This document shows, one piece after another, positions 31,637 to 41,222 of a DNA stretch of 41,330 nucleotides. Numbering within the stretch: position 1 is the first letter of the stretch; each line of letters starts with the position of its first letter. The DNA is from Pseudomonadota bacterium. GTDB taxonomy: Bacteria; Pseudomonadota; Gammaproteobacteria; Acidiferrobacterales; Acidiferrobacteraceae. The DNA is taken from positions 1-41,330 of the forward strand of contig JAJYDN010000020.1 in assembly GCA_021777535.1 (NCBI GenBank), given 5' to 3'. The notes under the pieces were generated by a model, which ran no database searches, was not told where the DNA came from, and was given only the letters and a program-made list of their open reading frames with translations. The position numbers were made by a program, and so were the translations under genes.

Positions 31637-31666
31637 GAACTTAATCTTTATAATGGTAGGCATTTA
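31637..31666 (-). promoter_or_regulatory. Candidate CbbR-type element of the cbb operon
   Basis: Read toward cbbL it is TAAAT-N11-TAAAGATTAAGTTC, ending 129 bases before the cbbL start and 10 bases before the cbbR start. It contains TNA-N7-TNA spacing known for CbbR sites, for example TAA-N7-TTA across 31631-31643. The same arrangement occurs before dabB (40506-40535) and before the operon at 34122 (33913-33942). A GTCAGTCG/TTGACTGACTCGCGA block at 31592-31624 gives a second dyad nearer cbbL. Confidence 0.7.
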
Positions 31667-31675
31667 GCTGAGTTA

Positions 31676-32656
31676 ATGATCAATCACTGGACCTTGCAGC
31701 AATTGCGCCTCTTCGAGGCGGTCGCCCGGCACCGCAGCTATACGCGCGCGGCCGAGGAATTGTGTCTGACGCAGCCCGCCGTCCATATCCAGGTGGGACG
31801 GCTCGAGGAGATCGTGGGCCTGCCCTTGATCGAGCGTGTCGGAAAGAAGCTGTTGCTGACCCGGGCCGGCGAGGAAGTCTACAAATCGACCGTGGCCGTG
31901 CTCGCGCAGCTGAAGACGCTGACCGTCACCATCGCGGACCTGAAGGGCAAAGTGACCGGACCGTTGAAACTCGCGGCAGTGACGTCGGCCAAGTTCTTCA
32001 TGCCCCATTTCCTTGGCCTGTTCGTCGAACAATATCCCGAGGTCCAGCCCCAGCTCGTGGTGACGAATCGGGCGCGCGTTCTCGAGCGCCTGAACAAAAA
32101 CCTCGACGATTTTGTGATCATGGGGCAAATTCCTCCCGATCTCGACCTCGCCGTGCATCCTTTCATGGACAACCCCCTTGTCGTCGTTGCGCATCCGGAT
32201 CACCCGCTGGCCCAGACGAAGGCGATCCCCATCGCAAAGCTGGCCAACGAGCGCCTGCTGCTGCGCGAGGCCGGATCGGGCACGCGCAGTGCAGCCGCCC
32301 AGCTCTTCACCCAGCATGGGTTTGCGGCGGAACCCTACATGGAGCTGGGGTCGAGCGAGGCGATCAAGCAGGCCATCATGGCGGGCCTGGGCATTTCGGT
32401 GCTATCGCTAAGCAGTCTCGAACTCGAACTGGACGCGGGGCGCCTGGTAATCCTCGATGTCGCGGGTTTTCCGCTGCACCGGATGTGGTACGCGGTCCAC
32501 CTGAACGGCAAGCAGCTCGGCCTGACCGCCGCAGTGTTCCTGCAGTTTCTCGTCAAGGAGGGCGCCGATCTCGGCATCAGCAAGGGCTGGGTGGCCGATA
32601 CGACCAACGCCCACCAGCCGCGCGCCCGCCGCAAGCGCCCGCTGCGCGACACCTGA
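31676..32656 (+). CDS. cbbR: LysR-family regulator CbbR
   Basis: A 326-residue LysR regulator, expected to sense Calvin-cycle metabolites and activate cbb genes. The winged helix-turn-helix is residues 5-63 (TLQQLRLFEAVARHRSYTRA, AEELCLTQPAVHIQVGRLEE). The effector domain follows from about residue 90 (GPLKLAAVTSAKFFMPHFLG, LEQ-type LNKNLDDFVIMGQ). Its position divergent from cbbL is the classical CbbR arrangement. The Arg-rich C-terminal tail is an extension. The ATG at 31676 touches the candidate operator, so autoregulation is likely. Confidence 0.95.
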   Translation: MINHWTLQQLRLFEAVARHRSYTRAAEELCLTQPAVHIQVGRLEEIVGLPLIERVGKKLLLTRAGEEVYKSTVAVLAQLKTLTVTIADLKGKVTGPLKLAAVTSAKFFMPHFLGLFVEQYPEVQPQLVVTNRARVLERLNKNLDDFVIMGQIPPDLDLAVHPFMDNPLVVVAHPDHPLAQTKAIPIAKLANERLLLREAGSGTRSAAAQLFTQHGFAAEPYMELGSSEAIKQAIMAGLGISVLSLSSLELELDAGRLVILDVAGFPLHRMWYAVHLNGKQLGLTAAVFLQFLVKEGADLGISKGWVADTTNAHQPRARRKRPLRDT

Positions 32657-32657
32657 A

Positions 32658-32689
32658 ATCCGGACCGGGACCCGCCCGGGTCACCGGAT
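32658..32689. terminator. Hairpin between convergent cbbR and PDC-sensor genes
   Basis: ATCCGG (32658-32663) pairs with CCGGAT (32684-32689), and CGGG with CCCG inside them. It spans the junction of two convergent genes and could stop transcription from both sides, although no T-run is present. Confidence 0.45.
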
Positions 32690-33691
32690 CCGCGAATCAG
32701 CAGGACATGTATCGTCCGGTCCCGCGGACCCGAGCGCGCCCCCGTCCAGCCAGAAATCCGCGTTCATGGCAAGGAACTCCTCGTAATGGACGGTGTGGGA
32801 CCCGTCGCACGAAAACGTCAGCCCCACCAGCCCATTGAAGATGTTGATGGTTCCGCTGCGCAGATAGAGGACATCGTCCATGGCCCGGAGTGCGCGGAAG
32901 TTCTCGAGTATCGCGCGGATCCTCCGGGCCGGGACCAGCGCGTTTTCCGGATAGCGCCGCCGCGGGTAGGCCATGCAGCTGTCGGGGTCGATCAACGCGT
33001 CCGCGCCGAGCAACCGGTAGCGGAGCGGATCACTCAGCAGCCAGACCGCCGCCTGGCTTGCAGCCAGATGCAGAACCACATGAAAGACGCCCCGCTCCCT
33101 CATCAGCTCCTCGATCACGCTCACGACCGTATCGGCATTGCGGTCGACGACACTCTCCGTGCGCGTCTGGGCAAAGACCGTGCCGCGGATCGATGGGTCG
33201 CCCTTCTGCTGGCGCCAGTGGCGGGGCTCCTCATAGACAAGCCGCGTATGCGGCAGTTCACGCAGCGCGAAATCCGCCCCCACATAGCCGATCGTTCCTC
33301 CTGCGCCATCCACTATGGCCTGGATGGCCGTCAGCGACGGCCGCCGCGCCCGCAGGCTGATATAGGCCTCGCTCAACAAAAATCCGGCTGGCGGTACCGC
33401 CTCGCGCATGTAGGGCCGATCCGCGCGATCACGCCCGCGATGCTCTTCGAGCAATCCTTCGCGACTCATGTTGGCGCTCACCTGCACGGCGCGGGCATCC
33501 AGGACGTACAGGAACTTGCAATGCGGAATCGACGGAAAAGCCGCGGCAAGCGTTGCGTCCAGACCCGCCGCATCGCCCCAGACCGTGCCGCAGTCTGCGG
33601 CCAAGGAACGCAACGGATCCCGCAACAAGTCCGCGAGCGATTTTCGTTGCTTTGAGATGCACTCCTGCAGGGATTCCCGACCCATACCCAT
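32681..33691 (-). CDS. Stand-alone PDC (Cache-like) sensor protein
   Basis: A 336-residue protein of the type annotated as PDC sensor domain-containing. The region from residue 60 to 160 reads FLYVLDARAVQVSANMSREG, RGRDRADRPYMREAVP, ISLRARRPSLTAIQAIVDGA and TIGYVGADFALRELP, a typical PDC ligand-domain pattern. No TM helix, signal peptide, GGDEF, kinase or methyl-accepting domain is visible, so it may be a cytosolic sensor acting through partners. The start is the ATG at 33691 behind GGAGG; a longer frame to 33748 lacks a site. It converges on cbbR and is divergent from the three-gene operon at 34122, so a link to carbon metabolism is plausible. Confidence 0.8.
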   Translation of the reverse strand: MGMGRESLQECISKQRKSLADLLRDPLRSLAADCGTVWGDAAGLDATLAAAFPSIPHCKFLYVLDARAVQVSANMSREGLLEEHRGRDRADRPYMREAVPPAGFLLSEAYISLRARRPSLTAIQAIVDGAGGTIGYVGADFALRELPHTRLVYEEPRHWRQQKGDPSIRGTVFAQTRTESVVDRNADTVVSVIEELMRERGVFHVVLHLAASQAAVWLLSDPLRYRLLGADALIDPDSCMAYPRRRYPENALVPARRIRAILENFRALRAMDDVLYLRSGTINIFNGLVGLTFSCDGSHTVHYEEFLAMNADFWLDGGALGSAGPDDTCPADSRIR

Positions 33692-33756
33692 GACAAAACC
33701 TCCAGCCGCGCCGGAGAACGACGCCATCCGCGCGCGCCCCGCCGACAATGGCCGTA

Positions 33757-33786: not shown

Positions 33787-33912
33787 CTGATATATTTTTA
33801 TCCGTTATATTTACCACGATCTATTTGCGTCCATGCCGCATTCCCTGGCAGGCTTTCCGGAAGAGCTTGATGAAACACATACGCCAGAGCCAGACCCGTT
33901 CTCTTAATTCCG

Positions 33913-33942
33913 TAAACTTTTACATTTATAAATCTTAAGTTC
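33913..33942 (+). promoter_or_regulatory. Third copy of the cbb/dab regulatory element
   Basis: Reads TAAAC-N11-TAAATCTTAAGTTC on the plus strand, ending 180 bases before the gene at 34122. The TAAA-N2-TTAAGTTC core and the 11-base spacing to the upstream TAAAY are the same as in the copies facing cbbL and dabB. The rest of 33787-34121 is AT-rich, then GC-rich, with no supported gene. Confidence 0.62.
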
Positions 33943-34121: not shown

Positions 34122-34427
34122 ATGTCGCGCATATCACATCACGGTGGCCCTGGGGCCAGAGGCGGCGCCTGCGTCGACCTCGCCCGCGCCATCAATGACA
34201 GCCTCGTCGATCGGGCACGCGCTGCCGGGCGTTTTGGCGCCCACGCGCGCGCCGCAGGATCGCATGTATCGGTCCGCTATCATCGGACTCAGGAACCGTT
34301 CTATTTGAGCTGCGATGAAGCGCGCCGGTATCTCGACTGGATTCGCGCGGGCCACATCGGGCCCCACTGGGCGGTCCCCGCCGCGCGCCGAACCACTGCG
34401 CACGGGGAACCTGAAGGCCATGGGTAA
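34122..34427 (+). CDS. Small protein of unknown function, first gene of the three-gene operon
   Basis: A 101-residue Arg/Ala/His-rich protein. The ATG at 34122 has AAGGGGG upstream. I do not recognise it. The most structured part is PFYLSCDEARRYLDWIRAGH, preceded by GSHVSVRYHRTQE; the ends look disordered. Its stop overlaps the next gene by 8 bases, which supports translation. It is the first gene downstream of the element shared with cbbL and dabB. It could still be a false call, since GC-rich frames stay open by chance. Confidence 0.5.
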   Translation: MSRISHHGGPGARGGACVDLARAINDSLVDRARAAGRFGAHARAAGSHVSVRYHRTQEPFYLSCDEARRYLDWIRAGHIGPHWAVPAARRTTAHGEPEGHG

Positions 34428-35367
34428 CGATGCGATCACCTATTGCGTGCATGCGGTGAGCGTACGCGAGTGCGCGCTCCTCACGACCATGATAGACCGC
34501 GTTTCGCGCCGCATCGGCCGACCGATCCGCTACGCGCCGGCCGCGGTGGCCCAGATCGTCTTTTTCGAGGGCCGCCGGCCGGCGGGATCGCGCGGTACGG
34601 TCTTTGTGCAGCTCACACGGGACAGCGGCAGGGAACCGGGCCCCGGCACCCTGCCCATGCCGCCCCATATGACCCATATGCTGGAACTTTTCGCCGGCGC
34701 GGCCCGCGACCGCGGAATCGCGCTCGGCTGCGGGCCGGCCACCGACACGGTGAGGGCGGTCTGCGACCTGTTCCAGAAGGCGGGCCCGCCCCATGCGCTC
34801 GTCAATGAAACCGATGACGGCCTGCTGCTCTTTCCTGGCGCGCGCCAGTTCGCCCGCTTCGGGCGCAATGCAGACGAAACGGCTGCCCAGTTTTTCCAAT
34901 CCGAGCCGCTTCAGGACCTGCGCCTGAAACGCATGGATGATGCCGCACTGGCATTGGCCGGCGACCGGCAAAGCGCCGAACCCGCGCTCTGGTACATGGG
35001 TATGGCACATGCCCGATGCGGCCTGTTTCCCTGGGTGTCGATAGACAGTCTTCTGCGCATGCGGGCGTGGCCGTATCTGGCGGCCGGATCCCCTGCACTG
35101 GAAAAGATCGCGGCCTTGCTGCGCGTCCGCCCCCACAGCGCCTCGGCACTGGTGTCGGAGGCGGGCATGGCCGCCGATGACGTGATCGCCTTCGTCAATG
35201 CCGCCCTTTCGTGCGGCTTCATTACCCTTGCAGATCCCGCGTATGACGCCGGAGCGGACAGCCCGCCTTACGCCCCACGGCCGGCTAAGGGTAGTCACGG
35301 CGCCTTGCCGGTTATGCTGAATGCCATCCGCAAGGCGCTCGGCATACCCTTCCATGACCGCGCTTAA
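34420..35367 (+). CDS. Uncharacterised protein, partner of a Ras-like GTPase homologue
   Basis: A 315-residue protein starting MGNDAITYCVHAVSVRECAL behind GAAGG. I do not recognise the family. The N-terminal 200 residues look like a mixed alpha/beta domain. Residues from about 225 (LEKIAALLRVRPHSASALVS, then EAGMAADDVIAFVNAALSCG) look like a small winged-helix or helical domain. There is no signal peptide or TM segment. It overlaps both neighbours (8 and 14 bases), so the three proteins are made together and may form a complex. Confidence 0.7.
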   Translation: MGNDAITYCVHAVSVRECALLTTMIDRVSRRIGRPIRYAPAAVAQIVFFEGRRPAGSRGTVFVQLTRDSGREPGPGTLPMPPHMTHMLELFAGAARDRGIALGCGPATDTVRAVCDLFQKAGPPHALVNETDDGLLLFPGARQFARFGRNADETAAQFFQSEPLQDLRLKRMDDAALALAGDRQSAEPALWYMGMAHARCGLFPWVSIDSLLRMRAWPYLAAGSPALEKIAALLRVRPHSASALVSEAGMAADDVIAFVNAALSCGFITLADPAYDAGADSPPYAPRPAKGSHGALPVMLNAIRKALGIPFHDRA

Positions 35368-35932
35368 ACTTGTATTCGCAGGTTCGCTTGGGACGGAGAC
35401 GGCCACCGCCATACGGGCGATCAGCGAGATCAAGCCCCTCCCGGCCGAGGTCCGCCCGCTCGATCACCGCCACCTGGATAATGGGTGGACACCGGTAGCG
35501 ATGGACCACGGAATGCTCACCCTCGGCGACGGCCGCACATTACATCTCTATGGGACACCGGCAGGGCTTCGTTTTGATTTCCCGGGGCCAATCATCGCGC
35601 AGGGCGCACTGGGCGCGGTCCTGCTCATGGATAATTCGCGGCCCGACCCGCTGGCCGACCTCGCGGTCTGTTTGCAGGCCTTCCAATCGCTGGCCGTAGC
35701 CGGCGCGGTCGCGATCGGCGTCGGCCGCATGAATCACCATCCGCGCCCGGCCCTCGATGACTATGCAGGCGCGCTCGCCCGACTGCGCATTGTCGCGCCG
35801 GTGCTGCCGCTCGACCCCCGCGACCGCCGCGACGTACTGCGGTTGCTCCAGGTGCTGTTCCGGCAGATCGAGGCGATGAACGGCGACGGCGGTACCGCCG
35901 GCCCGGCCGCAAGCGCACAGGGTCCGCCGTAG
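35354..35932 (+). CDS. Ras-like GTPase homologue with degenerate nucleotide motifs
   Basis: A 192-residue protein of the bacterial ATP/GTP-binding group related to small Ras-like GTPases. The scaffold is clear: KLVFAGSLGTETATAIRAIS, VAMDHGMLTL, LYGTPAGLRFDF, and GALGAVLLMDNSRPDPLADL. Usual members have GPVGAGKTTAI and GTPGQERFDF. Here the P-loop is GSLGTETA (residues 10-17) with the Lys and Ser/Thr positions lost, and the GTPGQ motif is GTPAG (67-71) with the Gln lost. It probably cannot hydrolyse GTP and may act as a pseudo-GTPase. It starts inside the preceding gene (ATG 35354). Typical relatives sit beside roadblock proteins; none is seen here. Confidence 0.75.
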   Translation: MTALKLVFAGSLGTETATAIRAISEIKPLPAEVRPLDHRHLDNGWTPVAMDHGMLTLGDGRTLHLYGTPAGLRFDFPGPIIAQGALGAVLLMDNSRPDPLADLAVCLQAFQSLAVAGAVAIGVGRMNHHPRPALDDYAGALARLRIVAPVLPLDPRDRRDVLRLLQVLFRQIEAMNGDGGTAGPAASAQGPP

Positions 35933-40505: not shown

Positions 40506-40535
40506 GAACTTAATATTTACGATTGTTGCTATTTA
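40506..40535 (-). promoter_or_regulatory. Candidate CbbR-type element of the dab operon
   Basis: Read toward dabB it is TAAAT-N11-TAAATATTAAGTTC, ending 175 bases before the dabB start. Similarity to the cbbL-cbbR region extends beyond the core: 40499-40546 and 31630-31677 agree at about 35 of 48 positions without gaps. The region between it and dabB must hold the dab promoter; exact boxes are unclear. Confidence 0.7.
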
Positions 40536-40560
40536 CCAGAGTCAATATCAGAGATACGGG

Positions 40561-40748: not shown

Positions 40749-41222
40749 ATGGCACGATACGCACAACGGTTGAAAGATCAGGCCGTGGCCCGGTTGTTAC
40801 CGCCAGAGAGCGCTGCAGTGGACAGGGTGGCCCACGAGATGGGGATAGGAGTGGCCACTTTGGAGCGCTGGCGGGCTGAGGCCTTGGGAGCCCCAAGAAC
40901 GGAACGTACTTGGACTGCCGCGGCGCGCTGGGAGGCCGTGATCGCCACCGCCGCACTAGATGAGGTCGCCAAGAGCGCCTGGTGTCGCGAACAGGGCCTC
41001 TATCCCTCGGATCTGGAGGCCTGGCGGGATCAGGCTATCGCGGCGTTGGCCACCCCGGCCGAGGTCCGGGCAAGACCCGAGGAGACCCGCAAGGATCGGC
41101 GGCGCATCCAGGAGCTCGAACGCGAGATGCGACGCAAGGACAAGGCGTTAGCCGAGACCGCGGCCTTGCTGGTGCTCTCAAAAAAACTCTCGGCGATCTT
41201 TCGAGAGGGCGCGGACGAATGA
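40749..41222 (+). CDS. IS3-like transposase OrfA
   Basis: A 157-residue DNA-binding subunit. The N-terminal helix-turn-helix is AQRLKDQAVARLLPPESAAV, then VAHEMGIGVATLERWRAEAL; the C-terminal part is a coiled coil (RIQELEREMRRKDKALAETA). A run of seven A (41180-41186) near the 3' end could allow a -1 ribosomal slip into orfB, whose frame is open from there. The ATG at 40749 follows GAGGTGAGAGAACG. Confidence 0.85.
   Translation: MARYAQRLKDQAVARLLPPESAAVDRVAHEMGIGVATLERWRAEALGAPRTERTWTAAARWEAVIATAALDEVAKSAWCREQGLYPSDLEAWRDQAIAALATPAEVRARPEETRKDRRRIQELEREMRRKDKALAETAALLVLSKKLSAIFREGADE

Follow-up and report, generated by a model that had tools for sequence, protein, structure and literature searches.

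A two-gene cassette in a carbon-fixation island

The window, by which we mean the whole 41,330-nt stretch of DNA that was analysed, comes from a genome of 2.3 Mb that is 99.6% complete, and carries an island composed of cbbQ, cbbO, cbbS, cbbL, cbbR, a PDC-like gene, the pair ORF2-ORF3, dabA and dabB. The genes cbbL, cbbS and cbbR are named from their sequences and gene order. A transposase gene (HTH_Tnp_1, 40749-41222) lies at the contig edge, just beyond the dab operon. The features considered here are the following.

31637..31677, + strand: CbbR-type element between cbbL and cbbR, in the TNA-N7-TNA form of CbbR sites
32681..33748, - strand: PDC/Cache-like soluble protein, a dab neighbour outside the cassette proper
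33902..33942, - strand: CbbR-type element upstream of ORF2-ORF3, between them and the divergent PDC gene, found with a matrix from the cbb and dab copies
34122..34427, + strand: ORF1, 101 aa, an open frame unsupported as a gene, inside extra DNA, absent from relatives, that separates the element from ORF2
34420..35367, + strand: ORF2, 315 aa, with receiver-like N-terminus, middle domain and winged helix; partner protein of Group 3 MglA systems
35354..35932, + strand: ORF3, 192 aa, an MglA-type small GTPase homologue that has lost G1, G3 and G4; probable pseudo-GTPase
40506..40546, + strand: CbbR-type element upstream of dabB, found by genome-wide pattern search

A sequence-only reading of this DNA had proposed an operon of three overlapping genes. 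The frames of 101, 315 and 192 residues, with overlaps of 8 and 14 bases, are present as described, but the first of them does not hold up as a gene. Codon usage in ORF2 and ORF3 resembles that of genes (0.18 and 0.22 per codon, respectively), whereas the ORF1 score of -0.05 per codon is comparable to that of wrong frames. A search of 57 genomes of the order gave no credible ORF1 homologue, comparison with 20 relatives showed no conservation of its DNA, and about 15% of segments simulated with matching composition contain an ATG frame this long. On these four grounds we dropped ORF1, which is probably no gene; it is possible as an orphan gene because a Shine-Dalgarno-like AAGGGGG, which we rate as fair, precedes it. 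The orthologous cassettes of Acidiferrobacter-type relatives (L018-L025) have no ORF1, in contrast to the window with its open frame.

The same reading had placed a PDC sensor next to these genes. The neighbouring protein does match dCache_1, but under the curated cut-off (E 0.014). Its gene is found at all eight cassette loci described below and also adjoins dabAB in three related contigs that have no cassette; it is thus a steadier neighbour of dabAB than the cassette is, and persists where the cassette is missing.

ORF2 resembles the Group 3 MglA partner protein

Searches of ORF1, ORF2 and ORF3 against Pfam and NCBIfam returned no family above cut-off. ORF2 has orthologues in eight genomes at 38–44% identity and is 42% identical to the protein at locus L036; a scan of genome contigs with ORF2 matched only six related genomes, with no broader spread. 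A structure model built on an alignment of 29 sequences (ORF2 and 28 homologues), in which W191, W217, P218 and A261 are invariant, has a mean pLDDT of 85.6 and replaced an earlier one (pLDDT 65.9) that preceded the deeper alignment. Residues ~3-100 of the model match receiver (REC) domains (Z 7.4–9.5) and residues ~202-271 match winged helices (Z 8.7–9.0). These Z values are moderate, and they agree with the published description of the Group 3 partner protein (PMC4316618). The winged helix of Nprl2/Nprl3 (GATOR1) tops the winged-helix rows (Z 8.5–9.8) and was entertained as a specific relative of ORF2; we made no use of this kinship because a stretch of about 70 residues may merely share a common arrangement. 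In the receiver-like region of the model a Glu occupies the acidic position past strand 3 and the acidic pair past strand 1 is not seen, a combination by which we judge that the ORF2 receiver probably cannot be phosphorylated.

In Group 3 MglA systems, an MglA homologue is accompanied by one or two MglB homologues and by a protein of unknown function that combines a receiver-like region with a winged-helix region (Wuichet and Sogaard-Andersen 2014, PMC4316618); such systems occur almost only in beta- and gamma-proteobacteria (PMC4316618). We found no function for them in the literature searched. The window conforms in having an ORF2 partner with receiver-like N-terminus and winged-helix C-terminus adjoining an MglA-family GTPase in a gamma-proteobacterial host. 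It differs in lacking an MglB/roadblock gene, in the loss of G1, G3 and G4 from ORF3, and in the position of the pair within a cbb-dab island with a CbbR-type element. The suggestion that these are unrecognised proteins forming a new module is not supported: ORF2-ORF3 fall within a kind already described (PMC4316618). A further parallel is offered by the Streptomyces conservons (CvnABCD), in which an MglA-type GTPase also sits beside accessory signalling proteins; the histidine kinase (CvnA) and roadblock protein (CvnB) of conservons are, in contrast, not next to ORF2-ORF3.

ORF3 appears to have lost nucleotide binding

ORF3 had been called a Ras-like GTPase homologue. The fold family is borne out by a Ras-superfamily profile (E 1e-9), by 49–55% identity to intact orthologues and by a length of 192 aa that fits single-domain MglA-type GTPases (<240 aa), but the nucleotide-binding motifs are gone. 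In G1, ORF3 reads GSLGTETAT where orthologues have GAMGAGKTT or similar (GAGKT to GTETA); in G3, GTPAG replaces GTPGQ; and in G4, RMN replaces RMD. The P-loop Lys and Ser/Thr, the Gly-Gln of G3 and the Asp of G4 have been replaced together. G5 is DPR, versus the published DAR (PMC4316618), and the intact paralogue within this genome has DPR as well.

ORF3 alone has a substituted P-loop among 17 alignment rows (two rows end before the motif), class-wide relatives keep GKT in 30/31 and PGQ in 31/31 cases, and the degenerate form turned up in no other genome. Of the sites at which the 16 other sequences are invariant, ORF3 has lost 7/15 within G motifs and 6/35 elsewhere (p 0.04), a weak enrichment that is not significant when only the eight closest relatives are used (p 0.27). 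Judged by its motifs, ORF3 appears to have lost the capacity to bind GTP.

The cassette in relatives and across the class

The ORF2-ORF3 pair is found in 8 of 14 sampled sister-genus genomes (Acidiferrobacter-type). Every one of the eight orthologous pairs occupies the same island, near the PDC gene and a DabA homologue, and near cbbR where the contig extends that far. These relatives (L018-L025) share with the window the orthologous pair, the island and the operator, and differ from it in the rest of the cassette: theirs comprises ORF2, an intact GTPase, a 142-aa roadblock-type (MglB-like) protein and a 119-aa protein, whereas the window has neither the 142-aa nor the 119-aa gene, and no remnant of either was found 3' of ORF3. 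The roadblock protein of the relatives scores 22.3 bits against Robl_LC7 (cut-off 23) and clusters with a clear Robl_LC7 protein. Their cassette is often followed by a GGDEF-EAL gene, identified as such by its sequence, and then by a lipoate-ligase-like gene, PDC, a gene for a porin-like protein and dabAB. In the sister genus, a SIR2-like domain gene (PF13289; L020 7450-8541 and equivalents) lies between cbbR and the cassette, and is missing from the window.

A second, intact cassette is present on contig 24 of the window genome (L033 2034-5486), encoding a partner protein, a GTPase, a phosphatase-type fusion, a 137-aa protein and a roadblock protein. The fusion resembles an ABC ATPase joined to a dual-specificity-type phosphatase, and the cassette order repeats in other families. 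The roadblock gene of this cassette is the only one over cut-off in the genome. One could suppose that ORF3 binds nucleotide through a changed pocket and is regulated by this roadblock protein; the genome does offer one roadblock gene and an intact paralogous cassette for such an arrangement, but with the P-loop, G3 and G4 residues all replaced at once we consider it highly improbable.

Some relatives do without the pair. G002, which belongs to the same genus as the window genome, G006 and G009 have kept PDC and dabAB, along with cbbR wherever the contig extends to it, while the pair is absent; a sensitive profile search found no remnants of ORF2 or ORF3 in the island of pair-less relatives, and both other genomes of the window genome's genus lack the pair. 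Since cbb and dab persist in such relatives, the cassette is dispensable.

Across the class, a GTPase profile found members in 75/370 sampled genomes. At 30 class-wide loci an ORF2-like protein adjoins the GTPase, nearly always on its upstream side, and most have a roadblock gene within 1.5 kb downstream. Outside the window genome's family, cassette GTPases are mostly distant from dab and RuBisCO genes; G372, of a different family, has the same four genes as a cassette unlinked to cbb or dab, so linkage to the island is no general feature of such cassettes. In the gene-neighbourhood check, the close orthologues are in the island in 8/8 cases and family-wide homologues are mostly away from cbb/dab. 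A RuBisCO-family gene is present in 53 of the 75 cassette-bearing genomes versus 139 of the 295 others (odds ratio 2.7, p 3e-4), a comparison uncorrected for ancestry in which the gene count may take in RuBisCO-like proteins.

One exception to this lack of linkage outside the family is contig C1 of G128, from an unrelated family. There, a cbbR-cbbLSQO cluster and a second RuBisCO gene flank an intact Group 3 MglA cassette (L089 290-15513), an arrangement that looks like an independent link between cassette and carbon fixation.

A CbbR-type element precedes the pair

The shared upstream element was correctly read from the sequence. The 41-bp CbbR-type element is present three times in the window and, at ≤3 mismatches, matches nowhere else in the genome, with no control hits; because the relaxed pattern was derived from those same three sites, their recovery is by construction and only the absence elsewhere is informative. 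A matrix made from the cbb and dab copies alone also finds the element before ORF2, both in the window and in 8/8 relatives. At all nine of these loci it has one constant orientation, and at each of them 0/200 shuffles reach its score. At four other, paralogous cassettes the element scores 9 or lower. Its half-sites fit TNA-N7-TNA or T-N11-A, the CbbR consensus (PMC2942843).

In Acidithiobacillus ferrooxidans, LysR-type TNA-N7-TNA/T-N11-A elements stand before the cbb operons, and cbbR is divergent from cbbL (PMC2942843). The present island resembles that regulon in its LysR-type elements and divergent cbbR/cbbL, and differs in that the element also precedes a small-GTPase-type cassette, none being seen in the parts of that description of the cbb operons covered here. 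In relatives, CbbR-type elements are additionally present ahead of a second DabA-like gene and in the interval from an aldolase-like gene to cbbR (L020 4823-4863 and 6390-6430).

The window copy lies between ORF2 and the divergent PDC gene. In the relatives examined no element was found in front of PDC and the element stays with ORF2, which indicates that the window copy most likely serves ORF2-ORF3. Its spacing to ORF2 is unusually long in the window, 477 bp versus 105–156 bp in relatives. CbbR-linked control of ORF2-ORF3 is, as a prediction from operator sequence, well supported because the element is unique to the island, precedes ORF2 in 8/8 relatives and is found at none of the paralogous cassettes tested.

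Taken together, island position and operator sustain the proposal that the pair is tied to carbon fixation: all eight orthologous pairs lie in a cbbR/PDC/dab island with a CbbR-type element upstream. The same facts, along with the constant PDC neighbour, could be taken to mean that the proteins are part of a working carbon-concentrating or carbon-sensing module, sensing inorganic carbon or regulating DabA directly. Against this, no carbon-sensor domain was found in ORF2 or ORF3, nor any domain supporting a role as transporter part or direct sensor, and neither protein has a Pfam match to DabA (PF10070) or DabB. Some cbbR/PDC/dabAB-bearing relatives lack the pair, the wider GTPase family is mostly unlinked to cbb/dab, and the element is missing before PDC in the relatives examined. 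We regard such a module as improbable, and the suggested place of these genes in the carbon-concentrating mechanism is not upheld.

ORF2 and ORF3 appear to be retained under purifying selection

In branch codon models, omega for ORF3 is 0.12 on the window branch versus 0.10 elsewhere (2dlnL 0.44), and neutrality of the window branch is rejected (2dlnL 56); ORF2 gives 0.10 on that branch versus 0.20, and neutrality is again rejected (2dlnL 91). By these models both genes are under strong purifying selection, with the reservation that omega is an average across one long branch whose synonymous sites are saturated, which would hide any recent loss of function. The ratio of window-to-relative divergence of ORF3 to divergence among the relatives is not above that of DabA or PDC.

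The main competing explanation is that ORF2-ORF3 are a decaying remnant, in which roadblock genes and GTPase motifs were lost as unneeded and the two remaining genes are on their way out. Such decay is consistent with the disappearance of two genes and every clear nucleotide-binding motif, with the dispensability of the cassette in relatives and its absence from both other genomes of the genus, and with the extra DNA that separates the element from ORF2. It sits poorly, however, with two fully open frames of native codon usage, with omega near background and neutrality rejected, with a divergence ratio no larger than for DabA or PDC, and with a retained operator. We consider decay unlikely, though the most serious of the alternatives. 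Because the codon models indicate strong purifying selection despite the loss of motifs, ORF3 looks like a retained pseudo-GTPase.

A proposed role in the control of carbon fixation

We consider it likely that ORF2-ORF3 descend, in reduced and probably GTP-independent form, from a Group 3 MglA cassette recruited ancestrally into the cbb-dab island and the CbbR regulon. What the sequences themselves show is the homology and anatomy of the cassette, its linkage to the island, the operator-like element it shares, the disappearance of the roadblock gene and G motifs specifically in the window, and purifying selection. Recruitment into island and regulon would have taken place in an ancestor of the family. 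CbbR would switch on ORF2-ORF3 along with RuBisCO and the Dab transporter, and ORF3, rather than switching with GTP, would stay bound to ORF2 as its fixed partner. The complex may then have an accessory part in regulating the carbon-fixation response, exerted through the winged helix of ORF2, which might bind DNA or protein and so affect transcription or another protein. That the pair lies under the same control element as the genes for CO2 fixation and bicarbonate uptake suggests a helper role in regulating carbon fixation, not in carbon uptake.

Only tentatively do we extend this to a wider picture, in which ORF3 is a retained bacterial pseudo-Ras protein that, under CbbR control, acts nucleotide-free as the fixed partner of a receiver/winged-helix regulator, and Group 3 MglA cassettes have repeatedly been co-opted to control autotrophic carbon fixation.

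The conserved CbbR-type element gives Group 3 MglA systems a physiological setting, the control of CO2 fixation, in which their function can be tested. If ORF3 is indeed a pseudo-GTPase kept by purifying selection, it would represent a natural separation of the GTP cycle from partner binding, and the Acidiferrobacter-type relatives with their intact cassette permit a direct comparison.
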